Shown piece after piece: positions 39,331 to 52,657 of a stretch of DNA of 64,000 bases; within the stretch, counting starts at the first letter, position 1, and every line of letters starts with the position of its first letter. The DNA lies in NCBI RefSeq assembly GCF_035917455.1, contig NZ_CP109078.1, positions 2,356,001 to 2,420,000 of the forward strand, read 5' to 3'. Position numbers and translations under genes: made by a program. Under the pieces are notes generated by a model. It was not told the origin of the DNA and made no database searches. It saw only the letters and a program-made list of their open reading frames with translations. The DNA comes from Micromonospora sp. NBC_01796. GTDB lineage: Bacteria > Actinomycetota > Actinomycetes > Mycobacteriales > Micromonosporaceae.

Positions 39331-39503
39331 GCCGCACCCGCCGTCGGCAGGTCGTTGAGTTCGGTGAGCAGTCGCTGGCAGAGGATGGCGAGCGGTCCCC
39401 GGCCGGAGGCCGCGGGCGCCTCGCCGCGTTCCAGGCCGCGGCTGAGTCCCGGCTCCGGTCGCAGGGTGCCGGCGAGCGGCAGGCTCAGCGCCCGGGCGAC
39501 GAC
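39327..39503 (-). pseudogene. ssd: 3' fragment of split ssd/cpaE-like gene
   Basis: The last 58 codons of ssd: VVARALSLPLAGTLRPEPGL, then GLERGEAPAASGRGPLAILC and QRLLTELNDLPTAGAA. It ends with a stop overlapping tadA (ATGA), the native arrangement. The sequence resumes the frame that breaks off at about 52652 after GRLKAREV. An ATG at 39530, inside element DNA, would give MGQTGIRQR fused to this fragment, but there is no convincing ribosome-binding site. Confidence 0.88.
39498..39503. other. Element junction, tad side (att site)
   Basis: The host ssd reading frame stops being homologous here. On the minus strand the host side reads GTCGTCGCCCGGGCGCTG and the element side reads AACGC. The only sequence shared with the other junction is a dinucleotide-scale core (GT on the minus strand), as usual for serine integrases, so the exact crossover (39499-39500 or 39502-39503) is ambiguous. 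Confidence 0.65.
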
Positions 39504-39541
39504 GCGTTGCCTGATTCCCGTCTGCCCCATACCGTCGCCCC

Positions 39542-41059
39542 ATGAGACGTGGTGCGAAGTACCGCCGGATCAGCGATGACCGGGAAGGGCGGGAGCTAGG
39601 GATCGCCCGCCAGGACGAGGACTTGGACGAGCTTGGCGAACGGGAAGGGGTCGTGTGGGTAGCGGACTACGTTGACAACGACATCTCGGCGAGCACCCGG
39701 TCATCCAAACCTCGGCCGGACTATGAACGGATGCTCCGCGACGCAAAGGCTGGCCAGTTCGAGGTCATCGGGGCTTACACCACCGGTCGCCTGACCCGTC
39801 GTCCTCGCGAACATGAAGACCTCATCGAGCTGGCCGAGAAGCACGGCACCGAGTTTGTCTACATCAAATCGCCGTCGTTCGACCTCAACACATCAGCCGG
39901 ACGACGGATCGCGCGCATCCTGGCTGCCAACGACGCAGGCGAGGCGGAGGACATCGCGGAACGGGTCCAACGTGACGTGAGGCGCCGCGCTGAGGCAGGC
40001 GAGTTCCACGGTGGGCAGGTCCCGTTCGGTGTCACCCCGGTCTGGGGAACGAAACGAGTGCGTGGCCGGGAGGTGCCTCGGATCATCGACTTCAACCTGG
40101 ACGCTGAACACGTCGCGTGGCTTGACGATGGTGCCGACCGGTTGCTCAACGGCGAGACGATCTACGGCCTGTGCAAGTCCTGGAACGACGCAGGCCGCCG
40201 GACCGACGCCGGGAACCTGTGGGAACCGAGAACCCTGAAGCGGATCTACACCGAGCCAGCGATCATCGGAAAGCGCGAGTACGGGGGCAAGCTAGTACCG
40301 GCACCCTGGCCAGCCATGATCGCTGAGACCAAGTGGCACCGCCTCCGCATCCTGCTGCTAGATCCGGACCGCCGGACCAGCGAAACGAACCAGCGGCGGT
40401 ACGAGCTGTCTGGCCTGGTGTTCTGTTGCCGGGTCATCAACGGCAAGGCGTGCGGCACCCGCCTGCATTCCAACGCCAACGGGACGTTCGAGTGCCCGAA
40501 GATGCAGGGTGGGTGTGGTCGACTGCGCATCGCCATGGAACACCTCGACCGGTACGTGGTCGACATGCTGTTCTACCGGGCCGACGAGGTACGTGAGGCG
40601 TTGACCGTCGTTGCCCCGGACACCGACGACATCGAGCGGGACCTACGTGCCGCCCTGGTGGCCGATGACGAAGCCCTGCGCACGGTGGCGGACGAGCGGG
40701 ACGACGGCAAGATTCAGAAACCCGAGTACGACCGACGCCGGACCCGCATCGAGGACCGCATGGCCACGACGCGCGCCAAGCTGGCCGCGATCGTCCGCAC
40801 CCCGGCCAACATGCCGACCGGTACCGAACTACGGCGGGTGTGGAACGAACGGGACGTGACCTGGCGCCGAACCATGTTCGGGATGTTCATCCAGCGGATC
40901 GACATCGGACCACACCCAACCAACCCCGATACCGGTAGGCCGCTGGCCAGCGCACCATCACGCCGTAGGGGTGAGACCGAGGAAGCATGGCGCGAACGGT
41001 TCGACCTGGCCCGTGCCCACATCCTCGCCCAGCGGGTCACGGTGACGTGGGCTGCGTAG
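39542..41059 (+). CDS. Serine recombinase (integrase) of the element
   Basis: 505 residues from ATG 39542, only about 40 bases from the junction. The resolvase domain opens MRRGAKYRRISDDREGRELG with catalytic Ser11, followed by Arg-rich GAYTTGRLTRRPREHEDLIEL. The recombinase domain spans about 165-280 (GVTPVWGTKRVRGREVPRI, YTEPAIIGKREYGGKLV). A zinc ribbon with Cys pairs is seen at FCCRVINGKACGTRLHSN and ECPKMQGGCGRL, then a coiled-coil region. This is the large-serine-integrase layout that recombines short att cores without a repeat at the ends. No Shine-Dalgarno is visible. Confidence 0.95.
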   Translation: MRRGAKYRRISDDREGRELGIARQDEDLDELGEREGVVWVADYVDNDISASTRSSKPRPDYERMLRDAKAGQFEVIGAYTTGRLTRRPREHEDLIELAEKHGTEFVYIKSPSFDLNTSAGRRIARILAANDAGEAEDIAERVQRDVRRRAEAGEFHGGQVPFGVTPVWGTKRVRGREVPRIIDFNLDAEHVAWLDDGADRLLNGETIYGLCKSWNDAGRRTDAGNLWEPRTLKRIYTEPAIIGKREYGGKLVPAPWPAMIAETKWHRLRILLLDPDRRTSETNQRRYELSGLVFCCRVINGKACGTRLHSNANGTFECPKMQGGCGRLRIAMEHLDRYVVDMLFYRADEVREALTVVAPDTDDIERDLRAALVADDEALRTVADERDDGKIQKPEYDRRRTRIEDRMATTRAKLAAIVRTPANMPTGTELRRVWNERDVTWRRTMFGMFIQRIDIGPHPTNPDTGRPLASAPSRRRGETEEAWRERFDLARAHILAQRVTVTWAA

Positions 41060-41061
41060 GA

Positions 41062-41694
41062 CTAAAACGGCGGTTCGAGTTCCGCCAGGCGCCGCCTCTC
41101 CCTACGAGCAACTAATCTCCGAATTGGCCACCAAGGTAGGGGCGTTAGCGGAATCCTTGAAAGAGGGTCACCCGTCGTTCGATAGGGACGTTCTTGCCCT
41201 ACCCGCGCCCACGAGCGGCCATTCGCGTCTGTGAACGCAACCGACAGCTCGAAATCTTTCGTCTCGAAACAACCCAGCTCACGCGAATCAAGAGGTTCAT
41301 ACAATTCAGCCTTGGTTCCAATCTCATCATCAACAACATCCCAAGTCTCTTCCGATGACCAGTACATCAGGAAGTCGCTGTGATGAATCCACACCCCCAG
41401 ATTGAAGATCGGCGCCGAGCTATAGTTCTTAACCCTCCACGCAATAGATTCAATTCTACCCACCAGTCCGCTTTCCGGATCTACGTACGCTGCCGGTCCA
41501 AAATCGACGATGTGACCAACCACCAGCCTCGCTTGAGCCTCCTCATTGTCCCGTCGCTCGTCGCGCCTGACACGGATCTCATGACGGAACAGGAGCCACG
41601 TCGCCAGGGCAGCGATACCCGACAACAGCAGACCCACGACGCTCCCCCACGCCTGCATCCAGTCGGTGATCTTCGGGGCTTCCGCAGCTAGCAC
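41062..41694 (-). CDS. Membrane-anchored cargo protein, function unknown
   Basis: 210 residues from GTG 41694, convergent with the integrase (2 bases between stops). A hydrophobic helix (WGSVVGLLLSGIAALATWLLF, about 16-36) precedes a basic/acidic stretch HEIRVRRDERRDNEEAQARL and a cytoplasmic beta-rich domain: VGRIESIAWRVKNYSSAPIF, NLGVWIHHSDFL and YRTTGDPLSRIPLTPLPWWP. The DNA is AT-richer than all neighbours. Single-copy membrane proteins beside a satellite integrase are often accessory (moron) or phage-interference genes, but nothing here proves it. Confidence 0.65.
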   Translation of the reverse strand: MLAAEAPKITDWMQAWGSVVGLLLSGIAALATWLLFRHEIRVRRDERRDNEEAQARLVVGHIVDFGPAAYVDPESGLVGRIESIAWRVKNYSSAPIFNLGVWIHHSDFLMYWSSEETWDVVDDEIGTKAELYEPLDSRELGCFETKDFELSVAFTDANGRSWARVGQERPYRTTGDPLSRIPLTPLPWWPIRRLVARRERRRLAELEPPF

Positions 41695-41865
41695 CGCGCC
41701 AGAGTACGGCCGCGCGTCCAGGGCGTGATCCCGCCTGACGGAGCCAACTTCTCCACGATGCGGAGAACTTCTGCGTCGAGTTCTCCACCTGTTGAAGATC
41801 AGCGCAGGCCAGTTCCGGAGTCCTCATACGTTCGCTGCGAACCGCACGACGAACCGGAGGACACC

Positions 41866-42138
41866 ATGACGGACCCGACCCCCACCACGCCGGACGCGAC
41901 CAAGCCCGCCCCGCGCAAAACCACCCCCGCGAAGCCGGCCACCACCCGGACCACACCGACCCCGGATGCCAAGCCGGCGACCCGCAAAGCTGCGGCCAAG
42001 AAGACCGCCGAACCGAAGCTGTACAACCCGACCGTGACCACCACCGGCCGGCTGGATCACTCGACGTGCGGGCACACCCGCGATTTGAAGGGCCGTGCCG
42101 CGTGCCGCGCCGAGGCGGCGAAGGCGGACAAGAAATGA
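41866..42138 (+). CDS. Lys/Ala/Pro-rich basic protein (histone-like)
   Basis: 90 residues from ATG 41866 (GGAGG 5 bases upstream). Low-complexity TPKPAxKxx-type N-terminus (APRKTTPAKPATTRTTPTP, RKAAAKKTAEPK) and a small C-terminal motif STCGHTRDLKGRAACRAEAAKAD with two Cys and one His. It overlaps the next start by ATGA. It could bind DNA like PAKK-tail proteins, or be a small phage protein of unknown role. Confidence 0.6.
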   Translation: MTDPTPTTPDATKPAPRKTTPAKPATTRTTPTPDAKPATRKAAAKKTAEPKLYNPTVTTTGRLDHSTCGHTRDLKGRAACRAEAAKADKK

Positions 42139-42446
42139 CCGCCGTCGGGGATGCCGAGGCCGGGGGTTACTCCCTGGCCCTCGGGCCGGTTCATGAGTGG
42201 ATCTTTTACCCGTCACACGAGGCCATGACCCGTGCTGTCGCCCGGTGGATGGCGTTCGGTGTGGCCTTCTTCGAGGACACCGACGACGAAGAGTTCCCGT
42301 TCAGCGAGGAAGCCTCGGAAGCGCTGGCCGCAAACCAGGATGCGTCGCCATGCCAACCGGGGTGTGGTCCGTGCCGGTTCGGCCTCGGGGTTGTGTGCAT
42401 CTGTGGCCCGGAGTGCGACCCGCCGACCGGGGGCGAATTCCGGTAA
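42135..42446 (+). CDS. Small phage-type protein with Cys-rich tail
   Basis: 103 residues, coupled to the preceding gene by ATGA. The N-terminal region (SLALGPVHEWIFYPSHEAMTRAVARWMAFGVAFF) has no known match. The C-terminus has six Cys in CQPGCGPCRFGLGVVCICGPEC, which may form a zinc knuckle. Function unknown. Confidence 0.55.
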   Translation: MTAVGDAEAGGYSLALGPVHEWIFYPSHEAMTRAVARWMAFGVAFFEDTDDEEFPFSEEASEALAANQDASPCQPGCGPCRFGLGVVCICGPECDPPTGGEFR

Positions 42447-42499
42447 CGCCACGACCCCGGCTCCCAACCTGGGATGTCCGGGGTTGTAGGCAGTGCAGG

Positions 42500-42709
42500 T
42501 TACGCGGGTACGGCACCACCAACGTCACGGAGAACACCGTCCACCCAGATCTGGAACGTCGGCCCGTTCCACCCCTCTGTCGGGATGTAGCAAGACACGC
42601 CGGCCACCTCCACCCGGACGTAGCGCACACCCAGGAAGTCGTACCACGGCTTCCCCTCCCGCATGGCGCGAGACATGGTTGCTAGGGCTGCGTCGATTCC
42701 CTCGGACAT
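42500..42709 (-). CDS. Small unknown protein
   Basis: 69 residues from ATG 42709 (GGAAGGGGAG upstream; an in-frame start 27 bases earlier is less well placed). Sequence features: SEGIDAALATMSRAMREGKP, YDFLGVRYVRVEVAGVSCYI and PTFQIWVDGVLRDVG, a compact alpha plus beta protein. It has no TM helix or catalytic motif. Confidence 0.5.
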   Translation of the reverse strand: MSEGIDAALATMSRAMREGKPWYDFLGVRYVRVEVAGVSCYIPTEGWNGPTFQIWVDGVLRDVGGAVPA

Positions 42710-42807
42710 GACTCTCCCCTTCCGACGGCTGACCATCAGCGCGTCGAGAAGGACAGTTACACGGGATGGTTGACACCCACAAGCAGGAAGATCATCAATG
42801 CCTGAGT

Positions 42808-42981
42808 TCAGTGAAGGACCCTGAACCTCTTTCCGTTCCAGGGCTTACGGGGACATGTGCACTCGCACCGCCAGTCGCGGTAGATGCGGGTGTCGGGCTG
42901 GTCGATGCAGTCATGATCCTCGACGCCCGCCGCTGCACGGTCGAAGCACCGGATGCAGATCGTTGCCAGCTCCTCCCTCAC
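42808..42981 (-). CDS. Cys-rich mini-protein coupled to upstream gene
   Basis: 57 residues from GTG 42981, which overlaps the upstream stop as GTGA. A longer in-frame start at 43011 would overlap that gene by 34 bases. It contains ATICIRCFDRAAAGVEDHDC and DWRCECTCPRKPWNG, CxxC/CxC pairs able to bind zinc. Its coupling supports it being real. Confidence 0.55.
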   Translation of the reverse strand: MREELATICIRCFDRAAAGVEDHDCIDQPDTRIYRDWRCECTCPRKPWNGKRFRVLH

Positions 42982-43244
42982 TGCCAATCCCGCACAGCAG
43001 GCACGGTCCATCCATAGAACCGGGTGAACACCTCGTCCGGGGTCGGCACAGAGTCGTCCGGGTTCAGCGTGTAGAGGTCGTTCAGGCAGTCCAGGTACAT
43101 CGTCGCCAGGTACAGGCTCAGCGACAGGGGCATCCCGTGATACCCGGCCAACAGCTCCGTACGCGCGGTTTCACACGGCCAGGGCTGACCACACGCCTTA
43201 CAACCCCAGTGCGGTCGACCGGGAAGGTGCATGTGCCCCGTCAC
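42978..43244 (-). CDS. Small protein with Cys motif, typical of actinobacterial integrative elements
   Basis: 88 residues from GTG 43244, overlapping the upstream stop (GTGA); ATG 43232 is the alternative. The N-terminus HLPGRPHWGCKACGQPWPCETARTELL carries the CxxCGxPWPC pattern often seen in short proteins of AICE/plasmid-like elements in actinomycetes. A helix (LSLSLYLATMYLDCLNDLY) follows. Function unknown. Confidence 0.65.
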   Translation of the reverse strand: MTGHMHLPGRPHWGCKACGQPWPCETARTELLAGYHGMPLSLSLYLATMYLDCLNDLYTLNPDDSVPTPDEVFTRFYGWTVPAVRDWQ

Positions 43245-43450
43245 CGGAGTGCCGCCCGCACGTCGTACGCGTGGAGCTGGCCGAGCGTGTACCGGATCGG
43301 CTGCCGTTGCGGAACCGAAGCGGTCGGCATCGTCCATGCCGGGGCCGGCACCACGACAGCGGGTGTGGGCGGGGGGTCAGTCAGCTCATGCCGGCCGATA
43401 CGGCGCGGCCGAGGGCGGAATAGGGACAGAAGGGCCATGAGGAATGCCAT
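43241..43450 (-). CDS. Small membrane-anchored protein
   Basis: 69 residues from ATG 43450. A short hydrophobic start (MAFLMALLSLFRPRPRRIGR) is followed by a Pro-rich linker and QRQPIRYTLGQLHAYDVRAA. It is the first gene of a three-gene coupled leftward set (43450 to 42808) whose promoter must lie at 43451-43550, near the palindrome. Confidence 0.5.
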   Translation of the reverse strand: MAFLMALLSLFRPRPRRIGRHELTDPPPTPAVVVPAPAWTMPTASVPQRQPIRYTLGQLHAYDVRAALR

Positions 43451-43470
43451 GCCCCATCGCACCACGTGGA

Positions 43471-43486
43471 GTTGTACCTGTACAAC
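43471..43486. promoter_or_regulatory. 16-base palindrome in divergent promoter (operator candidate)
   Basis: GTTGTACCTGTACAAC is a perfect inverted repeat (7-base arms, CT centre). It lies between the leftward small-gene set and the rightward AlpA-like gene. A further GTAC half-site occurs about 15 bases away (GAGCTGTACCACC). It is probably the binding site of an element-encoded regulator, possibly GntR/KorSA-like by pattern. Confidence 0.6.
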
Positions 43487-43550
43487 CCCCAGCTGAGCTG
43501 TACCACCCGAAACGGCGTGGTGCAAGTCCGCCAGGCCATACCTTCGGCTT

Positions 43551-43739
43551 GTGGAACTGCTTGGGTTGGACGAGATCCGTGACTTGCTTGGCGGGATCAG
43601 CAAGCAGCGCGCCACGATCATCGTGGGCCGCAAGGGATTCCCCGACCCGCTCGTCACGCTCAAGATGGGCCGGGTCTGGGATGGCAAAGCCGTCCGGGCC
43701 TGGATCGCCGAGAATCGACCCAGCCCGGCCGACGACTAA
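43551..43739 (+). CDS. AlpA/MerR-like HTH protein, candidate excisionase
   Basis: 62 residues from GTG 43551. The fold reads LGLDEIRDLLGGISKQRATI, then GRKGFPDPLVTLKMGRVWDG and KAVRAWIAENRP, the standard AlpA/helix-turn-helix_17 layout (recognition helix SKQRATI, wing GFPDP..GRVWDGKAVRAW). Such proteins act as recombination directionality factors or regulators beside integrases. No ribosome-binding site is evident; the palindrome lies 65 bases upstream. Confidence 0.8.
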   Translation: MELLGLDEIRDLLGGISKQRATIIVGRKGFPDPLVTLKMGRVWDGKAVRAWIAENRPSPADD

Positions 43740-43742
43740 GGG

Positions 43743-44045
43743 TCAGCCTCCACGGCGCCTACGGGTCAACTTAGCCGGAAGCAGGGCGGGAGCATCGTCG
43801 TCTGGTTCCGGATCACCCGCTCCGGAGGGATGAAACGGGCGTATTCCCGCTAGCCCTTCAAAGATTTCCCTGCGTTGCTCGGGCGCGCTATCCCGGAGCG
43901 CCATCTCCACAAGGGAGCGATTGTGATCGGCCCGGATCTTCTCGCGGATGACGTGGAGAGCGAGGGCGGCGAGCGCCAGAATCGCGCCACCCAGTACCGC
44001 CCACGGCCCGTACGCAAGGAACGGGTCGATGCTTGTGAGCCCCAC
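43743..44045 (-). CDS. Small membrane protein, unknown
   Basis: 100 residues from GTG 44045 (AAGGGGAT upstream; a longer in-frame start at 44090 is possible). One hydrophobic helix (AVLGGAILALAALALHVI) precedes a charged region with EKIRADHNRSLVEMALRDSA and EQRREIFEGLAG, and ends in KLTRRRRGG. Convergent with the AlpA-like gene, 3 bases between stops. It resembles small TM proteins of actinophages (function unknown). Confidence 0.55.
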   Translation of the reverse strand: MGLTSIDPFLAYGPWAVLGGAILALAALALHVIREKIRADHNRSLVEMALRDSAPEQRREIFEGLAGIRPFHPSGAGDPEPDDDAPALLPAKLTRRRRGG

Positions 44046-44467
44046 TGCCCTAATCCCCTTCACTCTCGGTCGAGTGAGGTGCACAGGCACGGCTCAGCTC
44101 GACCAGCCATTGATTGACTGATCTGCTGAGACCGCGCCACCGGCGAGCGGGGATCTCATTGGTACGGGGGGGGGGACGGCCCCTTAACGGGGCAGGTCCC
44201 GGTAGTCAGGTGTGTAGCCGCAAAGCAAGACTATTAGGTTGCCGGTACAGAAGATTTTAGGTTTAGTCTTTTATATCTTCTGGTTGTACTTGCTGAGTCC
44301 GCTGCAAATCGAACCCAGCCGCCTCAGCATACCCAACCCCGGCCGCGACACCAAACCGGCTCACCCACAGAGGCCCCTGAGATCAACACAGAGGCGCGAA
44401 CGCAGCCCAGGGGTGGTGTGGGTAACCCCCGAACCGCGCACGCGGGCTTACGGGCGGTAACCGGCCT
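44046..44467. other. Gene-free stretch with G-run and AT-rich island
   Basis: It holds a run of ten G at about 44166-44175, then a GGCCCC..GGGGC hairpin candidate (44178-44193). An island of low GC follows at 44221-44300 with inverted repeat CAGAAGAT (44248-44255) / ATCTTCTG (44275-44282). It lies at the end of the leftward structural-like operon. The island may be a terminator, promoter or recombination site. The nominal open frame through it (TTG 44239) has no ribosome-binding site and is not called. Confidence 0.5.
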
Positions 44468-45103
44468 CTATGGACGGACCTTCCGGACGGACAACGACAC
44501 GGCCTGGATGTTGAGCGCCGCACCCAGGGTGTGGAACGCCCTCAACGTGATGACCTCACCGGCGCTGGCCAACCGTTCGATCGAGCCGGCGACCGGGTCA
44601 CCCTGGTTCGTCGTCGGTCGCTTCTGTTCCACCAGCGTCGTGCCGGCCTTGACGATGGCGAGGGATCGCACGCCGGCTGCGCCCGTCGACCACACCCCGT
44701 ACGCCGTGAACGCGTAGACCCCGGTTGACGGGATGACCAGGTTGGTTGTGCTGGTGCCGGGGGTGAACATGCCGTGTGAGTCGATCTCGTCGGCGGTGAA
44801 CTCGACGTTGGTGCCCGACCCGCCAGAGTTGATGGGCTGGGCAGCGCTCCGGAGGACGATGCAGACGGGCAAGGTCTCGACAGCATCAAGCCGGCTATCT
44901 ACGTCCGTCACCCGATCATCGACCCTTGACACTCGGTCGTCGAGTTCGGCCACCCGACTATCGAGGCCATCGACAGCCGCCTCAACGCTGTCTGTTCGGG
45001 AATCCAGTTCGATGATCGCGTCTCGCAGCGGGTCGCCGTACTGACTCTTGCTGACCGGCTGCCCCGCGATCGGGACCTGGATCAGATCGTCGTAGTTACC
45101 CAT
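44468..45103 (-). CDS. Phage tail-type protein: coiled coil plus C1q-like domain
   Basis: 211 residues from ATG 45103, overlapping the upstream stop by 8 bases. Residues about 25-80 are heptads that should form a trimeric coiled coil (DSRTDSVEAAVDGLDSRVAE, then LDDRVSRVDDRVTDVDSRLD). Residues about 85-205 resemble the C1q/TNF-like beta sandwich of minor tail proteins (FTADEIDSHGMFTPGTSTTN, VIPSTGVYAFTAYGVWSTGA, LRAFHTLGAALNIQAVSLSV). These trimers usually act as tail-tip or fibre modules that touch the host surface. In an element without a capsid it could redecorate a helper phage. Confidence 0.75.
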   Translation of the reverse strand: MGNYDDLIQVPIAGQPVSKSQYGDPLRDAIIELDSRTDSVEAAVDGLDSRVAELDDRVSRVDDRVTDVDSRLDAVETLPVCIVLRSAAQPINSGGSGTNVEFTADEIDSHGMFTPGTSTTNLVIPSTGVYAFTAYGVWSTGAAGVRSLAIVKAGTTLVEQKRPTTNQGDPVAGSIERLASAGEVITLRAFHTLGAALNIQAVSLSVRKVRP

Positions 45104-45632
45104 CGTCGTCTTCTTCGTCATCAGTTTCGTAGAACTGACCGTCCACGACCGGGTGAGCGTCCACCAGTTGTCCGTGCTCGTCCTCGACCATGATGGCCTG
45201 AACCAAGAAATCCCTCGGGCCGACCGAGATGTCAGCGTCCACCTTGATCTGCGCCTTACCGATCGCGTGATCGATCGTGAACTTGGCGATGTCCGCGCGA
45301 ACGCGATCGTCTGTGTTGGGGTCTCGCATGAGCTCACCCAACACCTTCGCTGCCGACTCGACGTGTTCCAGCAACAACCCACGCGCCCGACTCTTCAACC
45401 GGCGTTGAGCCTCGGCAATGACCTTCGGTGTGATCCATTTCGGCGTAGCGCCCCGGAAAGAGCCATCGCTTGCACGGGGTCGTCCGTGGGCCAGCTCGGC
45501 TGGATCCCATTCCTCAACAGGCTTGATAATGCCGACCTCTACGCCGGCCGCGTAATCCCGGTCGACGTTCATGCCACGCGCCAACCGCTTGCGTATCTGA
45601 TCCGGCCTCCGCGACAGTTCGCGTCCAGCCAT
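45096..45632 (-). CDS. Phage-type protein, terminase-small-subunit-like
   Basis: 178 residues from ATG 45632 (GGGGAGG upstream). A basic N-terminus (AGRELSRRPDQIRKRLARGM), a central region with RASDGSFRGATPKWITPKVI, and a helical C-terminus AKVLGELMRDPNTDDRVRAD plus IAKFTIDHAIGKAQIKVDAD. The last pattern (per-copy number of helices ending in an IGKA-type motif) resembles small terminase subunits that choose DNA for packaging. The assignment is tentative; a DNA-binding structural gene is the alternative. If right, it would let the element redirect a helper's packaging. Confidence 0.5.
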   Translation of the reverse strand: MAGRELSRRPDQIRKRLARGMNVDRDYAAGVEVGIIKPVEEWDPAELAHGRPRASDGSFRGATPKWITPKVIAEAQRRLKSRARGLLLEHVESAAKVLGELMRDPNTDDRVRADIAKFTIDHAIGKAQIKVDADISVGPRDFLVQAIMVEDEHGQLVDAHPVVDGQFYETDDEEDDDG

Positions 45633-45664
45633 TGGTCCACACCTCCCCACTCTTGAATGCGTAA

Positions 45665-45703: not shown

Positions 45704-45719
45704 GGTCTACGGGAAACGC

Positions 45720-46334
45720 TCAGAACGCCATGGGTGCGTGCCCGATGCCGTGCGGGTCGTTCCGGATGTCGTCCTCGGTTGGCGCGTTGTCGGTGGTCTG
45801 CGGGGTTGCTCCCGACGTCGTCGGGGCACCGCCCTGGAACTCCGGCTCGATCTGGCCGTACATCTCCATCAGCGACGGTTCGAGACCAGGCAGCACGGAG
45901 AACTTCCCGAGCTGTTCCCGCTGGAACTCATCCACGGTCTTCTCCGCGAACGCGGCCAGCTCGTCGTCTTCCGCCAGGATGGTTTCGTGCAGGTCGGTGA
46001 CCCGTGCACGCTTGGCGGTCATGTCCCGGATCTGGGCGCGGAACTCGCGAAGGTCGGCACGGTCCACCACCTCGCCGTTGCGGATCGCGCGCCGGATCTC
46101 ACCCAGCCGACGGCGCATCTCCGTGCACGCACCGACGACCTTCTCATCCCGCTGGTCGAATCGACGGTTCGCCCGGTCGTCGTACGCCTCTTGGTGGAGC
46201 TTCTGCCACTTGGTTTCCTGTCGATGGATGGCGGTGTCGATGATGCGCTTGCCCTTGTCGCTCAGCATCGGCGTCTCTTCGCGGTACAGCCGCCAGTCGG
46301 ACAGGAATTTTGAGGCGGCGTATTGGACGGTCAT
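45720..46334 (-). CDS. Charged helical phage-type protein (scaffold-like)
   Basis: 204 residues from ATG 46334 (GGAGGAA 5 bases upstream), overlapping the upstream stop by ATGA. It is almost entirely alpha-helical and charged: SDKGKRIIDTAIHRQETKWQ, ACTEMRRRLGEIRRAIRNGE, REFRAQIRDMTAKRARVTDL and FAEKTVDEFQREQLGKFSVL. A Gly/Thr-rich tail follows. It could be a scaffold or capsid-size-altering protein, but no family is recognised. Confidence 0.55.
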   Translation of the reverse strand: MTVQYAASKFLSDWRLYREETPMLSDKGKRIIDTAIHRQETKWQKLHQEAYDDRANRRFDQRDEKVVGACTEMRRRLGEIRRAIRNGEVVDRADLREFRAQIRDMTAKRARVTDLHETILAEDDELAAFAEKTVDEFQREQLGKFSVLPGLEPSLMEMYGQIEPEFQGGAPTTSGATPQTTDNAPTEDDIRNDPHGIGHAPMAF

Positions 46335-46555
46335 CCGATTCCTCCGTACGTGGGTTCCCACAGCCCGTGATCGGCTTCCGTCGACCCGGTGTGGTCGAGT
46401 CCGTTCATGTCCTGCAACCGTTTGGCGGGAGCCATGTCGTCGGGAAGCCGCACCCCGCCGAACTCGCTGCCAGCGGCCATCTCGTCCACGGTCAGTTGAG
46501 TGCGCAGCGGGGGTGCAGCGTCAATCGCTGCGTCGAAGCGTTCCTCGGCGTTCAC
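46331..46555 (-). CDS. Small acidic protein, unknown
   Basis: 74 residues from GTG 46555, overlapping both neighbours (GTGA at the start, ATGA at the end). NAEERFDAAIDAAPPLRTQL and TVDEMAAGSEFGGVRLPDDM are visible, with no known motif. Tight coupling on both sides argues that it is translated. Confidence 0.5.
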   Translation of the reverse strand: MNAEERFDAAIDAAPPLRTQLTVDEMAAGSEFGGVRLPDDMAPAKRLQDMNGLDHTGSTEADHGLWEPTYGGIG

Positions 46556-46809
46556 CCGTCCGTCTCCCGGAACTCCAGCGCCGACGGGTTGTTGAGCGGC
46601 CCGACGTACGGACCCGGACCCGGTCCCCGACCGAGCGCGGGGAAGGTGTCGGTCAGGTCTTCGCGCGCCACCTGCGCGGACTTGTCGTCTTCGCCGAACA
46701 GGGCTTCCTCGTCCTGGACGGCTCGCAGCGTTTCCCGGATCTCGTCGCGCAGCTCAGCCAGCGCGTCACGGCCCTTCTTCGGGCCGAGCTTCCGATGCCG
46801 GACCGCCAT
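46552..46809 (-). CDS. Small basic-to-acidic protein, unknown
   Basis: 85 residues from ATG 46809, overlapping the upstream stop (TGATG). N-terminal MAVRHRKLGPKKGRDALAEL is basic, and the helix RDEIRETLRAVQDEEALFGE is followed by a Gly/Pro-rich tail (GRGPGPGPYVGPL). It resembles small head-proximal or DNA-binding phage proteins by composition only. Confidence 0.5.
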   Translation of the reverse strand: MAVRHRKLGPKKGRDALAELRDEIRETLRAVQDEEALFGEDDKSAQVAREDLTDTFPALGRGPGPGPYVGPLNNPSALEFRETDG

Positions 46810-47003
46810 CACGACACCTGCCGCAGGCTGGTGAGCGGGAACGTGCCCTCCCAGACCTGGTCGTTGTCGTCGGTACCCGTGAGGACTACGACGCCGGTAC
46901 CGTCCAGGGGTCGGATCTCCCACTTGCTGACGGTCAACTCGACCCGGTTGTATTTGAGCGCGTAGTTCACGCGGTTGGCCTCTTCAACGTCTTGCTTGGG
47001 CAT
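46809..47003 (-). CDS. Small beta-rich protein, unknown
   Basis: 64 residues from ATG 47003 (GGGAG upstream). The sequence VNYALKYNRVELTVSKWEIR and GTGVVVLTGTDDNDQVWEGT suggests a small beta-barrel. It is located between the ribbon-helix-helix gene and the basic protein gene, overlapping both by a few bases. Confidence 0.5.
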   Translation of the reverse strand: MPKQDVEEANRVNYALKYNRVELTVSKWEIRPLDGTGVVVLTGTDDNDQVWEGTFPLTSLRQVS

Positions 47004-47163
47004 TGCTTTTCTCCCATTCCTGATCGATCAGTTGCCGGATCAGCGCACCCAACGGCATGTCGTATCGGTCGGCCAGTGATTCCGCCCGGTACTTCTGCGA
47101 TTCCGAGACACGGATCGTCGGCAACACTTTCGGGTACCTCATGACTTGTCCTCGTCGGCCCAT
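46984..47163 (-). CDS. Ribbon-helix-helix DNA-binding protein
   Basis: 59 residues from ATG 47163 (GGGAGG 7 bases upstream). The pattern VLPTIRVSESQKYRAESLAD (ribbon and helix 1) followed by RYDMPLGALIRQLIDQEW (helix 2) is a CopG/Arc-type RHH. It is early in the leftward operon and may autoregulate the promoter at 47491-47519. Confidence 0.72.
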   Translation of the reverse strand: MGRRGQVMRYPKVLPTIRVSESQKYRAESLADRYDMPLGALIRQLIDQEWEKSNAQARR

Positions 47164-47176
47164 TACCGACCTCCCG

Positions 47177-47386
47177 TCATGCGACGGCCAGACGTTCCGC
47201 GCGGAGTTGCGACACCAGATCCGCAGCACGGCACAACGTATCTCGATGGCTGTTGGCAAGGCGTTCGGTTCGTCTGGCCCGGCCGTAAGCCGCGTGGCTG
47301 CATCGGTCCCCCGTGATCGTGGCAACGACGCCGTACCGCTCCACGAGCTTGACCAGATACAGGATGAAAATCCAGGACATGAGCAT
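47177..47386 (-). CDS. Small membrane-anchored protein, first gene of leftward operon
   Basis: 69 residues from ATG 47386 (GGGAGAAA 5 bases upstream). A hydrophobic N-terminus (MLMSWIFILYLVKLVERYGV) is followed by a basic region with RARRTERLANSHRDTLCRAA. It is 105 bases downstream of a good promoter. Unknown function; small TM proteins are common early genes in satellites and phages. Confidence 0.5.
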   Translation of the reverse strand: MLMSWIFILYLVKLVERYGVVATITGDRCSHAAYGRARRTERLANSHRDTLCRAADLVSQLRAERLAVA

Positions 47387-47490
47387 GGCTTTCTCCCTTG
47401 TGTATGGCGTACGGAATTGCGACCACTGATCGCGGGAACTGTCGGCGGACCGCTGGTCATTCGCCACTGACGAAAAACACCGACACACGA

Positions 47491-47519
47491 ATTATGCCCA
47501 GATAGCCCGAGCTTGTCAG
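47491..47519 (-). promoter_or_regulatory. Sigma-70-like promoter of the leftward operon
   Basis: On the minus strand CTGACA (47514-47519), a 17-base spacer, then CATAAT (47491-47496): 5/6 and 5/6 matches with ideal spacing. It points at the 47386-44468 gene set. Confidence 0.8.
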
Positions 47520-47557
47520 GAAGGCCATTGTCGGTGTCGAGTTGTAGGCTGCGCGGC

Positions 47558-48274
47558 GTGAAGGTGAAGGCGTGGCTTGACGGCGATGAGATTGACCTTG
47601 AAGATCTGGTCGACCTGTTGCCCGATGGAGACATCCGGGTAGCGAAGGACGACGACGGGTACTACCTGTCTGCCACAAAGATCGACAATCGACCGGCCGG
47701 GGTGCCGTATTACGAGGCCGCCCGTGACGTGGTCCGGACGGTCAACGGACTGGGGCGGGCACACAACCCAGGCTTCCGGGCGGTCAGGCTGAACGGGCGC
47801 TACCAGGATGGGGACCGCAAGGCCACCGTCGTAATCGTGGGCACGGCCGAGGCGCGATTGGGTGCCTTCCGGGCGAAGGCCGTCGGGCGGGTGACCCGAC
47901 CCGATGGGACGGTTCTGCCCCCACCCCCACCGCCTGGCCCCCGGCGTGCCGCACTGGCAGCCACACATCCGGACGTTGCGGAAGCGCTGGCCCTCATGGG
48001 TCAACCCACCCCGCTCGGATGGGTCGAGCTGTACAAGGTCTACGAGATCGTCCGCGATGCCGTGAGGCCGACCAAGCTAGAGAAATCGGGACTGGCCACC
48101 AAGGCCGAACTGAAGGCGTTCACCGGATCGGCCAATCGGCCAGACGTCAGCGGAGCCGACGCACGACACGCACGCCCGGATGGCGCTCTACCCCCAACGC
48201 GGACCATGACGCTTCCACAGGGCCGGCAATTCATCGGGGACCTTGTGTGCGCCTGGTTGGACAGCTTGGCGTAG
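47558..48274 (+). CDS. Element protein, function unknown
   Basis: 238 residues from GTG 47558. TAGGCT at 47546-47551 sits at -10 distance, so a leaderless mRNA is plausible. The acidic start KVKAWLDGDEIDLEDLVDLL and KDDDGYYLSATKID, VVRTVNGLGRAHNPGFRAVR, and a run of seven Pro (LPPPPPPPGP) precede a helical C-terminus (ELYKVYEIVRDAVRPTKLEK, TLPQGRQFIGDLVCAWLDSL). It is the only rightward gene between the two leftward operons and is close to a shared regulatory gap. No family recognised. Confidence 0.6.
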   Translation: MKVKAWLDGDEIDLEDLVDLLPDGDIRVAKDDDGYYLSATKIDNRPAGVPYYEAARDVVRTVNGLGRAHNPGFRAVRLNGRYQDGDRKATVVIVGTAEARLGAFRAKAVGRVTRPDGTVLPPPPPPGPRRAALAATHPDVAEALALMGQPTPLGWVELYKVYEIVRDAVRPTKLEKSGLATKAELKAFTGSANRPDVSGADARHARPDGALPPTRTMTLPQGRQFIGDLVCAWLDSLA

Positions 48275-48591
48275 CACTTCTCCACATAACGGCAATTATG
48301 GTGTCTCCGCATAGCGCACCAAAGCGGCGCAAGCTAAACGGACCACACCCACCCTCGCGGGGTCACCGGATGCGCGGCTAACGGGGTGCGTGTGGTCGGT
48401 GGGACAGAACCCGTTCAGTTCGTTTCTAAGACGATGGGGCACCCACACGCGACAAACCCCCGCGATTGGATGCCCCACTCCCTCTGTGGCCACCTGGACT
48501 GCCTTCCCGGCCCACGCATACGACCCCGGACGGATGTTCATGTTGCCATTTCAGGTTCGGCGTAGGTCCCGCCTTGTTACGGATGGCCCCG
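48275..48591. other. Gene-free stretch before the iteron region
   Basis: About 320 bases. Several open frames exist in both directions, none with a good ribosome-binding site or domain. No strong hairpin was noticed. It probably belongs to the non-coding replication region. Confidence 0.4.
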
Positions 48592-48672
48592 CTAACCGCA
48601 GACCACACCGCACACGACCAGGACGATTGCTGCCGGCACGACCAACAACCACACATGCCCGTTCAGCTTCAT
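48592..48672 (-). CDS. 26-residue hydrophobic peptide
   Basis: ATG 48672 with GGGGGA 6-7 bases upstream. The peptide MKLNGHVWLLVVPAAIVLVV followed by CGVVCG is a single TM helix with two Cys. It lies between the iterons and the 47558 gene. Tiny membrane peptides of this type occur in actinophages; expression is unproven. Confidence 0.4.
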   Translation of the reverse strand: MKLNGHVWLLVVPAAIVLVVCGVVCG

Positions 48673-48737
48673 TGCGTTCCCCCATCCGTCGACCGGACGG
48701 TATGGCGGCAATCCGTAGCCGCGCATCTCGTGGGGTC

Positions 48738-48934
48738 GAGTTCGTGACTTCGTTCCCCCCATACACAACGGGAACGGGGAACGAACCCGTTCCCCCGCCG
48801 TCGTCTTGTGCCGGTTCCCCAGTTCGTTCCCTGGCAAATGGCGCTTGACGTGCGGAAATACGAGTTCGTTCCCCTGCGTTCCCTTCCTATGGGAACGAAG
48901 TCGGCCTACCGTGTCCGGGATTGAGTTCGTTCCC
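48738..48934. repeat. Iteron array, candidate replication origin
   Basis: The 9-mer TTCGTTCCC occurs four times in direct orientation (48749, 48823, 48865, 48926) and twice inverted as GGGAACGAA (48777-48785, 48891-48899). The extended unit is GA(G/C)TTCGTTCCC. GGGAACGGG (48770-48778) and CCCGTTCCC (48786-48794) also form a hairpin. Spacings are irregular (about 28-60 bases). It is directly beyond the 3' end of the ATPase gene of the replication operon. Iterons of this kind bind initiator proteins in plasmid and satellite origins. Confidence 0.8.
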
Positions 48935-48935
48935 T

Positions 48936-49958
48936 TTATTCCTCACGTCGCGGCGGTCCCCACCGCTCGGATTCTTGGCGGTCGCCGTCACGCTTGACCG
49001 ACCGCGCGACGATGCTCGGTGTGGGCATGCCGGTCAACTGGTTCCACACCTCGTTGAAGATCGTTGGCTTGCCACCGACCCGCGCCCGGACATCGGTCTT
49101 GGTGTGCTGCCACGGCTCGGCGGTCACGAGCGTCAGGATTTCCTTCCGCATGGCCGGGCGTGGTCCCTTCTCGCTGGCCGGGACGTCCGCGACTTCCAGC
49201 ACCGCTGACCGGCCGACCGGGACACGGCGAACCCAGGTCTCCGCCCCCGCTGGCCCCTCCTTGACCTTCTTGCGTCGGATGCACACCAACGTCTCGGGGT
49301 TGTCCGGTTCCTGTTTCTCCAAGACGATGACCTCGTCGGCGTTGCTCTCGAACTGTGATCCACCTCGGGCGCGGTTCTGGGGTCCCCATCCGGTGTGGTG
49401 CACCAGCACCGCCGTCCCGTCGATGTCCATCGACAGGTCCGACAGGTATCTCATGACCGGCGCGGCGTCCTTCGTCTCGTCGGCCTCCGGTGCCAGAGAC
49501 GAGAACGTGTCCAGCACGACGAGCACGGCATCACGGTCGACGGCCAGCTTCGTCAACGCCTCCCAGAAGATCGGATCCTTCAGGCTGGCGGGCTTCAGAA
49601 CGAAGGTCACCATCTCCGGGTTCAACTTGGCTTCGTTCTCCTCTTCCCACGCAGCGATTCGACCGCCAAGCCCGTAGGCGCCTTCACCTACGACGAAGAT
49701 CACGTGACCGGTCATGGCCACGTGGTGACCGAGCCACGGCTTACCGGTCGCCACCGAGCACCCCATGCCGATGACAGCAAACGTCTTGTTACTGCCCGTC
49801 GCTCCGACCATGATCACTGCCGAGCGGAACCCAAGCGCGCCCTCGATCAGCGGTTCGGGCGGTGGGAGCGCGTGGATGTCCGCCAGGGTGAGAACCCGCC
49901 CCAGCTTGTCCGACATCACGTCCTCGATCTCCTCGAACGCCAAGTCGTCGTCGGTCAT
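48936..49958 (-). CDS. RepA/RecA-like replication ATPase
   Basis: 340 residues from ATG 49958, overlapping the primase stop (ATGA). Walker A MVGATGSNKTFAVIGM, Walker B AVLVVLDTFSSLAPEA and the LVHHTGWGPQNRARGGSQFE segment (sensor-type, as in RepA/KaiC-like hexameric helicases) are intact. A C-terminal winged region (MRKEILTLVTAEPWQHTKTD, VRARVGGKPTIFNEVWNQL) could bind DNA. It is the expected helicase partner of the primase and is next to the iterons. Such pairs replicate satellites and small plasmids. Confidence 0.85.
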   Translation of the reverse strand: MTDDDLAFEEIEDVMSDKLGRVLTLADIHALPPPEPLIEGALGFRSAVIMVGATGSNKTFAVIGMGCSVATGKPWLGHHVAMTGHVIFVVGEGAYGLGGRIAAWEEENEAKLNPEMVTFVLKPASLKDPIFWEALTKLAVDRDAVLVVLDTFSSLAPEADETKDAAPVMRYLSDLSMDIDGTAVLVHHTGWGPQNRARGGSQFESNADEVIVLEKQEPDNPETLVCIRRKKVKEGPAGAETWVRRVPVGRSAVLEVADVPASEKGPRPAMRKEILTLVTAEPWQHTKTDVRARVGGKPTIFNEVWNQLTGMPTPSIVARSVKRDGDRQESERWGPPRREE

Positions 49959-50887
49959 CGCTGGGCCGCCTTCTCGTATTTCGCCCAGCAGCGAGGCAAG
50001 TCCTCGTCCAGCCGTTCGGCGTAGTCGGTGGTCGCGGGTTCGAAGTGCTGCATCAGCGCGTACGTCTGGTCGATCGTCAGACCGGCCGCGTAGAAGTCAC
50101 GCCAGAACCCGTAGAACGTCCGGGAGATGTCACCCTTGGTCCGCAACATGTTGGACCGTAGGATGCTTCGGGTCTTCGATGGCAGCCGCGCCATCAGCTC
50201 CCGCCGTTCGGCTGTCGTCAGCGCGATGACCCGCATGGGTTCGGATCGGCCACCAGTCACCCCCAGCATGTCCCGAAGGTTCCGGAGGTCCATCCCTCCG
50301 GCGTACTCCCGGAGCATGTCCAGCAACGCCTGTGGATGGATCTGGGTCCGCCTGCCGACGGCTGGTATCGGGCCGACCCGCGCACCGGTCTTAGGGTTGA
50401 TCGACCCTGGCAGCCGAAGCAACGAGTCGTCGGACCACTTGGCGTCGCCGTGGATGGCCTTCGTCAACAGCCAGTTGAGCAACGAGATGTTCTCCGGCTT
50501 CCTGACCGGCCGAGACAGCGGCACGTACACATGGAAGTTGCCAGGCCGCCCCGACGGCACTAGCCGGGTGTGGTCCCTGAGCTTGTCCGGCACGATCAGT
50601 TCGGGACGCTCCGGCGACGCGTCGAAGTCAGACCAGATCACATGTGACAGTGCCGCCGTGCCCTTCTTCCGCCTCGCCCCTGCCGGCCTCGGTGCCGGGC
50701 AGACGAACATGTGCGTCTTGGCCGCGTTGAACTTGGAGAAGTAGTCGAACACCCGCGCTACCGGCATCGTGGATGGTTCCGGGGCGGCGAAGAAGCCACC
50801 GTCGGGCTTCTGGCCCACACCCACCCACAGCGTTGCCGTCGGGTCCACCATCCGGAGCCAGGCGTTGACCTGGTCTTTGTCGATCAC
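49955..50887 (-). CDS. Primase-polymerase (RepB-like, AEP superfamily)
   Basis: 310 residues from GTG 50887, overlapping its neighbours by GTGA and ATGA. Motifs fitting archaeo-eukaryotic primases: LSHVIWSDFDASPERPELIV (acidic DxD-type), RLVPSGRPGNFHVYVPLSRP (SGRxxFHVYxPL) and DSLLRLPGSINPKTGARVGP (LRLPGSxNxK). The C-terminal 100 residues are helical. It starts replication of the element, most likely with the downstream ATPase at the iteron site. Confidence 0.82.
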   Translation of the reverse strand: MIDKDQVNAWLRMVDPTATLWVGVGQKPDGGFFAAPEPSTMPVARVFDYFSKFNAAKTHMFVCPAPRPAGARRKKGTAALSHVIWSDFDASPERPELIVPDKLRDHTRLVPSGRPGNFHVYVPLSRPVRKPENISLLNWLLTKAIHGDAKWSDDSLLRLPGSINPKTGARVGPIPAVGRRTQIHPQALLDMLREYAGGMDLRNLRDMLGVTGGRSEPMRVIALTTAERRELMARLPSKTRSILRSNMLRTKGDISRTFYGFWRDFYAAGLTIDQTYALMQHFEPATTDYAERLDEDLPRCWAKYEKAAQR

Positions 50888-51261
50888 GACGGGTCACCAC
50901 CGAACTCGATTTCAAGGAAGTAGTCACCCATAGCGTGATAGATGCGCTTGAACAGGCGGCGGTACTCGGGGTCGTTCTGGAGCTTCGGAAGGAGTTCCCG
51001 TCGCCAGTCCTCCAGCTCGGCCAGGCTTTGCACGGTGATCATCGACCAGAGGGCAATGCTCATGTACGAGTCGTCATCGAGGTGAGGGATCAACGCCTGC
51101 CGCTCGCGCCTCCCCATCCGGAAGAGCACCACGACGAACGGCGGCGGGGTCGGTCGCTTCGCACGCGGCTCGCCACCACCATGCGATGATGACCCGGCTG
51201 AAGCCTTTCCCGAGTGCCCGTCCTCCCTGCCATGGGGGCGGGCCTCATCCTGTTCAGCCAC
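50884..51261 (-). CDS. Protein of replication operon, unknown
   Basis: 125 residues from GTG 51261, overlapping the upstream gene by 8 bases. The N-terminal 50 residues are low-complexity, the C-terminal part MGRRERQALIPHLDDDSYMS and LAELEDWRRELLPKLQNDPE is helical and acidic. It may be an accessory replication factor because it is coupled to the primase gene. Function unknown. Confidence 0.55.
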   Translation of the reverse strand: MAEQDEARPHGREDGHSGKASAGSSSHGGGEPRAKRPTPPPFVVVLFRMGRRERQALIPHLDDDSYMSIALWSMITVQSLAELEDWRRELLPKLQNDPEYRRLFKRIYHAMGDYFLEIEFGGDPS

Positions 51262-51508
51262 GGGAAGCACCGCCCTGGAACAGTGCAGCGGCACGGCTGA
51301 TCAGGGATTGGTCCTGGACCTTGTCGGGCAACCCCTGCGCACGGGCCGACCGGACCGCGTGCTGTACCGCGACCTCACGCGCATTCTTCGGCCGGTACCA
51401 CTCACGCTCGGGAGCGTGCAGGATCGCATCGTGCCGGAAGTCCACCGGCCGCTTGGTCGCCAGCTTTCGCAGCGCTTGGCGGAACCCGTCGTCCTGCCGG
51501 GCGCTCAT
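51254..51508 (-). CDS. Small basic protein of replication operon
   Basis: 84 residues from ATG 51508, overlapping the upstream stop by ATGA. RQALRKLATKRPVDFRHDAI and REWYRPKNAREVAVQHAVRS are visible; it is basic and helical, so nucleic-acid binding is plausible. No known family. Confidence 0.5.
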   Translation of the reverse strand: MSARQDDGFRQALRKLATKRPVDFRHDAILHAPEREWYRPKNAREVAVQHAVRSARAQGLPDKVQDQSLISRAAALFQGGASRG

Positions 51509-51774
51509 GACCGGACCGCCTTCCGGGGGTCCAGGTGGGGCTGGTACGGGGTGGCCAGAATCCCTGGGGTGAACAGCTTCGACAGGGGGATGCCCAACAG
51601 CTTGGGCAACGAAGTCCGGCACCGATCGCAGGGGTGCGTCCGGCCTTGAAGGACGTTCTTCAGGTGGTTTTCGTTCACCCCGATCTCTCGGGCCGTCTCG
51701 ACGATCGATCGCCCGTGTTCGGCAAGAGCCCCGATCGCTTTACTCTGCCGGCCGTGCCGACTAGTGGATCTCAT
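51505..51774 (-). CDS. XRE-like helix-turn-helix protein, head of replication operon
   Basis: 89 residues from ATG 51774 (GGAAGGAA 6 bases upstream). The HTH SIVETAREIGVNENHLKNVL with QGRTHPCDRCRTSLPKLLGI and LSKLFTPGIL resembles lambda-repressor-type domains in actinophages. It leads a five-gene coupled operon (51774 to 48936) and could be its autoregulator, or the initiator that binds the iterons. Confidence 0.7.
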   Translation of the reverse strand: MRSTSRHGRQSKAIGALAEHGRSIVETAREIGVNENHLKNVLQGRTHPCDRCRTSLPKLLGIPLSKLFTPGILATPYQPHLDPRKAVRS

Positions 51775-52383
51775 CTGTGGTTCCTTCCACGCCCCGTCCG
51801 AGACAGCAAAGGAACCTGCGGCCACAGAAATCCGGACGGGGCATGGTCCGACTCACGTGGTGCAGGTTCCCGGTTTGTCTCGGTTGTGGACGGGAGCCAC
51901 AGTGTCCGGCACGACTTGCCCGTTGGGTGACCCCGATACGGTGCGTGCTTGCCAATCATGTTACCCGACCGAACAGAGCCCTGATCATGAGTGAGCGTTC
52001 CGTAGCCGTCCGTACGGGTCGGGCACGGTCGCACCACCCCCAACCCGTGCCAACGTCTCTGGGGCCACCTCAGAGCGGTCAGCCCAGCCGTCCCGGCCAC
52101 ACTCGGGGCACATCCATCGCACTGGTTGTTGCCGCGCCCACGGTGTGTCATGCTCGGACACAAGGAGGGGAGTATTCCCCGACGGTGGTGCCGTCAGCAC
52201 GGTGGAACTCCGGTCCAGCCGGGGAAGAAACCCGGCACCATCGGTCACCTCAGGGCCCAGCGCCCTGGTCAGTGACGGAAGAGACCTCCGACAGTCACCC
52301 AACCCATGCGTCCTGCTGGCACGAGTAGCCCATACGAGGGCGCTTCCAGCGGGTACGCGGCGTGAGCTGTCGGAGGTGCCCCC
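51775..52383. other. Long leader/intergenic region of the element
   Basis: About 610 bases without a confident gene. It must contain the promoter of the leftward replication operon. A hairpin GGGGA-GTAT-TCCCC lies at 52167-52180. Elsewhere I see short repeats only, no tRNA-like fold. Confidence 0.45.
51985..52161 (-). CDS. Possible zinc-ribbon mini-protein
   Basis: 58 residues from GTG 52161, or shorter from an internal ATG. It contains RWMCPECGRDGWADRSEVAP, one CxxC pair typical of zinc ribbons; a second pair is missing. There is no Shine-Dalgarno, so this is a weak call. Confidence 0.28.
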   Translation of the reverse strand: MSEHDTPWARQQPVRWMCPECGRDGWADRSEVAPETLARVGGGATVPDPYGRLRNAHS

Positions 52384-52632
52384 TTGCTCACGATTTACGC
52401 TGCTCTCACGGTGGCCGCCAGCACAACGATCTACGCTGGCGCCAAGATTGCCGCCCTCCTCATCGCTCTGCGGGATACGAAGCCGTCCGAGCGTGCCGTA
52501 CTCATCGAGGCGGTGGCCGAGCTGTTCCGAACTCGTCCCTGGCCAAGGAGTCGAGTAGGAACACAACGCCGGCCCCGAGCGATTCCATCAGCCAAGCCCA
52601 AGCAGGATGCAGTCGACGCAGATGCGGGGTGA
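52384..52632 (+). CDS. Small membrane protein at element end
   Basis: 82 residues from TTG 52384 (GGAGG at 52373-52377). A hydrophobic start (LTIYAALTVAASTTIYAGAK plus IAALLIALRD) precedes SERAVLIEAVAELFRTRPWP and a basic tail. It ends about 20 bases from the right junction. Such proteins with a TM helix and an RAxLRALAELFR-like segment are common in actinomycete mobile elements. Function unknown. Confidence 0.6.
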   Translation: MLTIYAALTVAASTTIYAGAKIAALLIALRDTKPSERAVLIEAVAELFRTRPWPRSRVGTQRRPRAIPSAKPKQDAVDADAG

Positions 52633-52651
52633 CGGGTTTCGTGCAATGGGT

Positions 52652-52657
52652 CACCTC
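52652..52657. other. Element junction, ssd 5' side (att site)
   Basis: Host codons on the minus strand read CGT GAG GTG up to here, then the frame continues into ACC CAT TGC ACG of the element, which has no ssd homology. The shared core with the other junction is a GT (AC on the plus strand at 52653-52654). Joining at this core restores an uninterrupted reading frame of about 368 codons. Confidence 0.65.

Follow-up and report, generated by a model that had tools for sequence, protein, structure and literature searches.

Several kinds of phage satellite bear on the element reported here, and excerpts of the published accounts give their main traits. The pac-type Staphylococcus aureus pathogenicity islands (SaPIs) and other phage-inducible chromosomal islands (PICIs) that encode a small terminase subunit (TerS) are 10-15 kb long and carry a terminal integrase, their own replication genes with repeats, and TerS, without a large terminase subunit (TerL) or capsid (PMC6092414, PMC10690885). 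Phage-inducible chromosomal minimalist islands (PICMIs) of Vibrionaceae contain an integrase, a small regulator and a primase, have no capsid genes and use a virulent helper; as excerpted, they lie beside fis and have no terS (PMC10803314). The Streptomyces phage satellites MulchRoom and MiniFlayer are described as carrying capsid and packaging genes and lacking key replication genes, with a tail fibre gene in MiniFlayer (PMC10690885), and candidate Mycobacterium PICIs as integrated elements, some with serine integrases, that are defined by a major capsid gene (PMC10654092). A survey, again in excerpt, counts small prophage-like elements as possible satellites and finds that validation in actinobacteria lags (PMC10023795). 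Here, we analyze a 64-kb window (the whole stretch of DNA examined, part of one 8.56-Mb contig) of Micromonospora sp. NBC_01796, in which an integrative element splits the pilus-locus gene ssd. We consider it probable that this element is a capsid-less phage satellite whose TerS would redirect the TerL of an infecting actinophage. No such element was found described in the literature searched, most subscription papers and bioRxiv lying outside its coverage.

In a genus sample of three genomes that includes the window's own, both congeners compared carry an intact, minus-strand ssd of 367 aa (loci L058 of G002 and L059 of G001). Relative to these two, the match of the left flank to intact ssd ends at base 39500 and that of the right flank begins at base 52653, with the dinucleotide AC as their sole overlap (39499-39500 = 52653-52654), which sets the size at 13,154 bp from core to core. 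The intact Ssd protein aligns by tblastn with its residues 1-314 at 53584-52643 and residues 306-367 at 39515-39330. The GC fraction is ~0.61-0.66 inside the element versus mostly 0.68-0.77 outside. Large serine integrases produce a two-base core; the AC core, with a serine integrase as the first gene inside, thus agrees with insertion by such an enzyme. As read from the sequence, abutting flanks, AC core and serine integrase are together no chance pattern. An initial annotation, made by a model from the letters alone, had ssd split by an integrative element at 39498-52657 and called for a search of the same genus for an intact gene of about 368 codons. The exact ends lie within three bases of those positions, and in both congeners the site is empty and ssd runs uninterrupted through 367 codons. 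No homologue holding the same 13 kb as a host segment was found.

Twenty-four element proteins are listed, all of which were scanned against PHROGs (two with alternative starts) and Pfam; clear matches were obtained for the integrase, an AAA ATPase, TerS and a fibre-like protein with a virion-structural match (Table 1). The serine recombinase, replication pair and iteron array named in the initial annotation were all recovered, and one of its "phage-type small genes" proved to be terS, which it had not recognized. The primase assignment draws on PHROG 3123, a family itself of unknown function, on primase-like N-terminal parts of replication proteins in related elements, and on a DNA_primase_S match of 0.002, below the Pfam cut-off. 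The iteron AGTTCGTTCCC (at most one mismatch) occurs at six sites in the window, every one of them within the array; shuffled sequence contains 1.04 sites on average and reached six in 0 of 100 shuffles. The AAA/primase pair and the iterons form a predicted replication module with a repeat-based origin.

Table 1. Features of the element and its interrupted host gene, in window coordinates.
Feature	Position	Strand	Evidence
ssd C-terminal part	39327..39500	-	81% identity, residues 306-367
Whole element	39499..52654		AC cores at 39499-39500 and 52653-52654; comparison of both flanks with the intact gene in two congeners
Large serine integrase, 505 aa	39542..41059	+	Pfam Resolvase 9.7e-22, Recombinase 3.8e-7; PHROG 95 integrase 1.6e-72
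Integrase-adjacent conserved protein	41062..41694	-	39-40% in two relatives; also adjoins related integrase in G255
Small Lys/Ala-rich conserved protein	41866..42138	+	Two relatives: 53-69% across 35-64 aa
62-aa conserved small protein, possible regulator/excisionase	43551..43739	+	90% and 54% in two relatives
Coiled coil + fibre-head-like domain, 211 aa	44468..45103	-	PHROG 13989 virion structural 9.4e-9, residues 78-204
Small terminase subunit TerS, 178 aa	45096..45632	-	PHROG 10899 TerS 5.5e-6; tblastn Triscuit 1e-21, Huwbert 1e-20; tree
204-aa all-helical protein of this element family	45720..46334	-	Family search; AlphaFold mean pLDDT 74.7, helices only
SEFGG-motif protein, 74 aa	46331..46555	-	Motif, operon place, blastp 0.002 to Amorphoplanes copy, profile comparison E 1e-7
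85-aa conserved small protein	46552..46809	-	43% over 60 aa in Amorphoplanes
53-aa conserved small protein	46984..47145	-	29-40% in two relatives and remnant
Iteron array, candidate replication origin	48747..48934		6 copies: 4 direct, 2 inverted
AAA/RecA-type ATPase, likely helicase	48936..49958	-	AAA_25 4.9e-23; PHROG 906 1.2e-30
Primase-like protein	49955..50887	-	PHROG 3123 1.4e-5; 28-29% to N-terminal part of two relatives' replication proteins
Conserved small protein, replication operon	50884..51132	-	25-33% in two relatives
Conserved small protein, replication operon	51254..51508	-	38-45% in two relatives
Helix-turn-helix-like protein, start uncertain	51505..51825	-	33-39% in two relatives; weak helix-turn-helix matches
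ssd N-terminal part (CpaE-like gene, Flp/tad pilus locus)	52653..53584	-	92% identity, residues 1-314

TerS matches were found in seven of 354 family genomes, comprising, besides the window's, three complete relatives, one remnant (G299) and two weak matches (G154, G283) that have nothing else in common with the element. The complete relatives reside in Amorphoplanes auranticolor NBRC 12245 (G012), Micromonospora phaseoli CGMCC 4.7038 (G223) and Virgisporangium aliadipatigenens NBRC 105644 (G349) and measure 12.3, 13.1 and about 15 kb (approximate ends), so that size-matched relatives do exist. All three follow a plan of integrase, replication genes, helical protein and TerS, without TerL or capsid. 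Window, Amorphoplanes and M. phaseoli have in common the integrase, the integrase-adjacent, Lys/Ala-rich and 62-aa proteins, TerS, the 204-aa protein, the primase-like protein and the small replication-operon proteins; with Virgisporangium the window shares integrase, TerS, 204-aa protein and ATPase. Protein identities to the window are mostly 25-53%, and 52/42/28% for the integrases of the three relatives. Besides carrying an integrase of its own, the element occupies a specific attachment site in the chromosome. That of Amorphoplanes departs from ssd at the identical base, with both right flanks picking up again at L058 base 1143, and the end sequences look alike. The M. phaseoli element splits cpaF, next to ssd (the flank matches break off at L058 base 2176 and start again at 2178), and that of Virgisporangium lies between two dprA parts, the N-terminal one recognized as DNA_processg_A (2.6e-60) and the short C-terminal one unrecognized by Pfam. 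Credible matches to the 204-aa protein are confined to five of the 354 genomes (the window's, G012, G223, G349 and the G299 remnant), and none occurs in 50,697 phage records. Weak matches in G316, G318, G330, G619 and G643 were rejected, each being a host protein of at most 81 aa; the one scanned (L075, G619) is DUF2630 (1.3e-31). The Amorphoplanes element also encodes a second, small resolvase-type recombinase (L012:10039-10722).

The terS gene connects the element to a lineage of complete phages. By tblastn it matches 38 phage records, the top one being Microbacterium phage Triscuit, where the gene is annotated as hypothetical; the Huwbert match is an annotated terminase small subunit. Besides TerS, the Huwbert and Shrew genomes contain TerL, portal, scaffold and capsid genes. 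No integrase is annotated among all 121 features of Shrew or in 3120-64999 of the 67,767 nucleotides of Huwbert, and these phages therefore look virulent. TerL is present in 17 of 18 viral loci carrying a related TerS; the exception, L038, ends 2.1 kb past terS. In a tree of the four element TerS sequences with those of 14 of the 18 viral loci, Shrew and Huwbert, the elements group with L030, the identical L031/L032, L033 and L035 at 100/100, apart from Huwbert and Shrew, which makes an L030/L032/L033/L035-like helper lineage more likely than a Huwbert-like one. A further TerS relative (33%) lies on L021, contig SSFP01000105.1 of a Polynucleobacter metagenome-assembled genome (a betaproteobacterial bin), and is probably a phage or mis-binned contig.

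We searched the four elements by tblastn with the TerL, portal, capsid, scaffold, tail and lysis proteins of Shrew, Huwbert, L032 and L033. These searches gave primase similarity (E 6e-7 to 0.023), a chance-level minor capsid match (0.087) and nothing else; among the 18 viral loci, the same queries detected TerL in 17, a portal protein in 14 and a capsid protein in 5. PHROG scans of all 24 window proteins found no TerL, portal or capsid, nor did those of 48 proteins of the relatives (47 of 49 called genes and one hand-placed) among the matches listed (25 of 33 families). As TerL was found in none of the four elements but in nearly all of the viral loci, TerS without TerL appears to be a family feature rather than a sampling gap in one element. 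Conjugation families, including FtsK/SpoIIIE and relaxase, are likewise absent from the Pfam matches of the 24 window proteins. The initial annotation had seen neither virion nor conjugation genes; these scans agree with it, and none turned up in relatives that have at least two genes besides the integrase in common with the element. Within the four carrier genomes, no match to L033-type or Shrew TerL was found, which favours an infecting helper over a resident prophage.

Between the 85-aa and 204-aa genes lies a small gene whose SEFGG motif occurs in 1 of 373 window open reading frames (ORFs) of 40-160 aa. A small EF[G/N]G ORF is found directly upstream of TerL in 8 of the 18 viral loci (L030, L031, L032, L033, L035, L036, L041 and L044), as is Huwbert gp34 (EFQGG); in Shrew, two minor tail genes and a tiny ORF separate gp42 from TerL. 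A motif match in L037 was discarded since it sits in an unrelated ORF. By blastp, E values of 3e-9 to 6e-12 relate the copies in Amorphoplanes, M. phaseoli and the remnant to those of L030/L032/L033/L035 (1e-9 to 1e-11 for the Amorphoplanes and M. phaseoli copies), and profile comparison relates the window protein to the phage copies (probability 94%, E 1e-7, 36 columns). SEFGG is an uncharacterized small protein kept beside TerL in phages and retained by elements without TerL.

Integration and replication genes of its own and TerS, the DNA-selecting component of a phage packaging motor, with no recognizable capsid or motor, point to probable spread in the particles of another phage, which we regard as the most likely mode. 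An actinophage of the matching TerS lineage would infect the host, and a small regulator would switch the element on. The element would then excise and replicate from its iterons, after which its TerS, possibly helped by the SEFGG and 204-aa proteins, would load satellite DNA onto the TerL, portal and prohead of the helper. Helper-made particles would carry the DNA out, and in the next cell it would re-integrate into ssd. A phage of the Triscuit/Huwbert/Shrew or L030/L032/L033/L035 type (54-68 kb), infecting and perhaps virulent, is the probable helper.

The initial annotation had likewise proposed a helper-packaged satellite, and the bounded insertion, empty sites, integrase, replication module, TerS without TerL, lack of a detected capsid and three size-matched relatives largely sustain that proposal. 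Several points weigh against it. Excision, induction, replication, helper packaging and transfer are predicted from sequence, and no helper phage is known for this host. The AlpA-like label given to the 62-aa protein found no support, as this protein and two relatives have zero Pfam matches up to E 10. Support for the satellite TerS sequences as a single clade is just 46/86. Queries for tape measure, head-tail stopper, tail terminator and endolysin matched 0 of the 18 viral loci and so have no positive control. The window SEFGG copy is divergent, with blastp 0.002 at best (Amorphoplanes) and at least 0.018 to phages, and in the Virgisporangium element the protein was not found. In Virgisporangium, one family search also gave a stronger TerL-like match (9.9e-20), to a different TerL.

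The strongest competing account is a prophage remnant, in which virion genes have decayed and integrase, replication genes and terS were kept by chance. The TerS, fibre-like and SEFGG proteins do derive from a phage lineage, and G299 shows that decayed copies of this element type exist, with TerS cut short. Independent decay, however, should not give the same gene set and order within 12-15 kb in four elements (Amorphoplanes, Micromonospora, Virgisporangium and the window) at 25-53% identity, nor does it fit the open reading frames and clean attachment sites, and we consider a remnant unlikely. It is very unlikely that the locus is instead a decoy defence island, whose TerS and SEFGG proteins poison the packaging of infecting phages without TerS redirection. 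Satellites often interfere with their helpers, according to excerpts of two accounts (PMC10690885, PMC10803314), and TerS without TerL could act as a dominant negative; against this, integrase, replication genes and iterons of its own imply mobility, and PADLOC gave no match in 10 proteins scanned (six from the window, four from relatives).

The third alternative requires a look at related integrases, which occur at E <=1e-60 in 11 of the 354 family genomes. Besides the window and G012, elements with such integrases have at most one or two further family genes, namely the integrase-adjacent protein (G255), a 48% identical replication protein (G219) or one small protein (G322); some of these stretches are short (5-6.6 kb), and their cargo is partly seen. 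Related integrases (42-49% identical) occur in elements like actinomycete integrative and conjugative elements (AICEs) and in others, and the same Pfam library detects FtsK/SpoIIIE proteins in those of G264 and G282 (9.6e-8 and 3.2e-5). Judging by these loci, the integrase clade is one that serves several kinds of element, and the integrase alone therefore proves nothing on element type. A small AICE, or a mobilizable element with a conjugative helper, is highly improbable: same-clade integrases do occur in the FtsK/SpoIIIE-bearing elements, that of G264 also splits the tad locus, and AICEs may also carry replication genes of this kind, but Pfam matched no FtsK/SpoIIIE-type transfer protein or other conjugation family in the 24 window proteins, and TerS plays no part in conjugation.

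Elements with related integrases also lie at the Flp-pilus locus. The FtsK/SpoIIIE-bearing element of L093 (G264:C70:93900-113800) splits cpaF, with a T2SSE match upstream, and in L094 (G338:C1:2256300-2276200) an ssd end stands just before the integrase, with a cargo that includes a 1228-aa protein without Pfam match. From these insertion points, this locus looks like a shared site where mobile elements of several kinds land. In G282, the same integrase occurs twice with equal scores (L090 and L091), apparently in a duplicated element. A separate island of L102 (G026:C75:104000-119599, 3.8-14.5 kb) combines a primase, an AAA ATPase, a tyrosine integrase and TerL (PHROG 2, 1.8e-38; 34% to the L033 TerL); no portal or capsid was seen up to the contig end, and it is possibly a second kind of satellite.

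Among the remaining genes, that of the 211-aa fibre-like protein overlaps the terS end with its start, and its product matches a Gordonia phage minor tail protein (4e-4). The place beside terS is variable: in Virgisporangium it holds a tailspike-like right-handed beta-helix of 597 aa (Beta_helix 2.4e-12, Pect-lyase 7.1e-12; Phage_depo_C 0.0037, under the Pfam cut-off), in M. phaseoli a match-less 190-aa protein and an SprT-like protein (under cut-off), and in Amorphoplanes no variable gene. From sequence we infer that these proteins may bind receptors. We entertain as a tentative and rather doubtful idea that the satellite family joins TerS to its own exchangeable virion-surface gene, with SEFGG as a packaging cofactor common to helper and satellite; if true, particles with satellite DNA and those of the helper would adsorb to different targets. 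The 62-aa protein and its M. phaseoli copy share 90% of their residues, versus 28-69% for neighbouring proteins, which suggests recent exchange or strong constraint. The M. phaseoli copy of the helix-turn-helix-like protein matches HTH_31 (0.0017).

Set beside the described systems as excerpted, the putative satellite resembles the TerS-encoding PICIs in gene plan, sharing their size class, terminal integrase, replication genes with repeats, and TerS without detected TerL, portal or capsid. PICI integrases are of the tyrosine type, whereas this element has a large serine integrase, a Micromonosporaceae host, the SEFGG and 204-aa proteins and a fibre- or tailspike-like gene beside terS. For the Stl/Rpr repressor or AlpA activator of PICIs, the candidates here are the 62-aa protein, which lacks a Pfam match, and the weakly matching helix-turn-helix-like protein at 51505-51825. 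It resembles PICMIs, as far as the excerpts go, in its integrase, putative small regulator, primase, lack of capsid genes and, perhaps, a virulent helper, but sits in ssd with terS rather than beside fis without it. Like MulchRoom and MiniFlayer it would be an actinobacterial satellite, with a fibre-like gene where MiniFlayer has a tail fibre gene; their excerpted pattern of capsid and packaging genes without replication genes is reversed here, and the capsid, portal and TerL that mark them and the capsid-forming PICIs were not found. The candidate Mycobacterium PICIs are, in excerpt, also integrated actinobacterial elements, some with serine integrases, and differ by their major capsid gene. 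Triscuit/Huwbert/Shrew-type actinophages (67.5-68 kb) share the TerS family and the EF[G/N/Q]G small protein but are complete phages that look virulent and, unlike the element, have TerL, portal, capsid and tail.

Few actinobacterial satellites have been shown experimentally. The element gives a defined family with exact ends and a named packaging lineage in which to search for a helper, and flags the Flp-pilus locus as a landing site common to several kinds of mobile element. It also makes a simple prediction: TerS would be required, and TerL would come from the phage.

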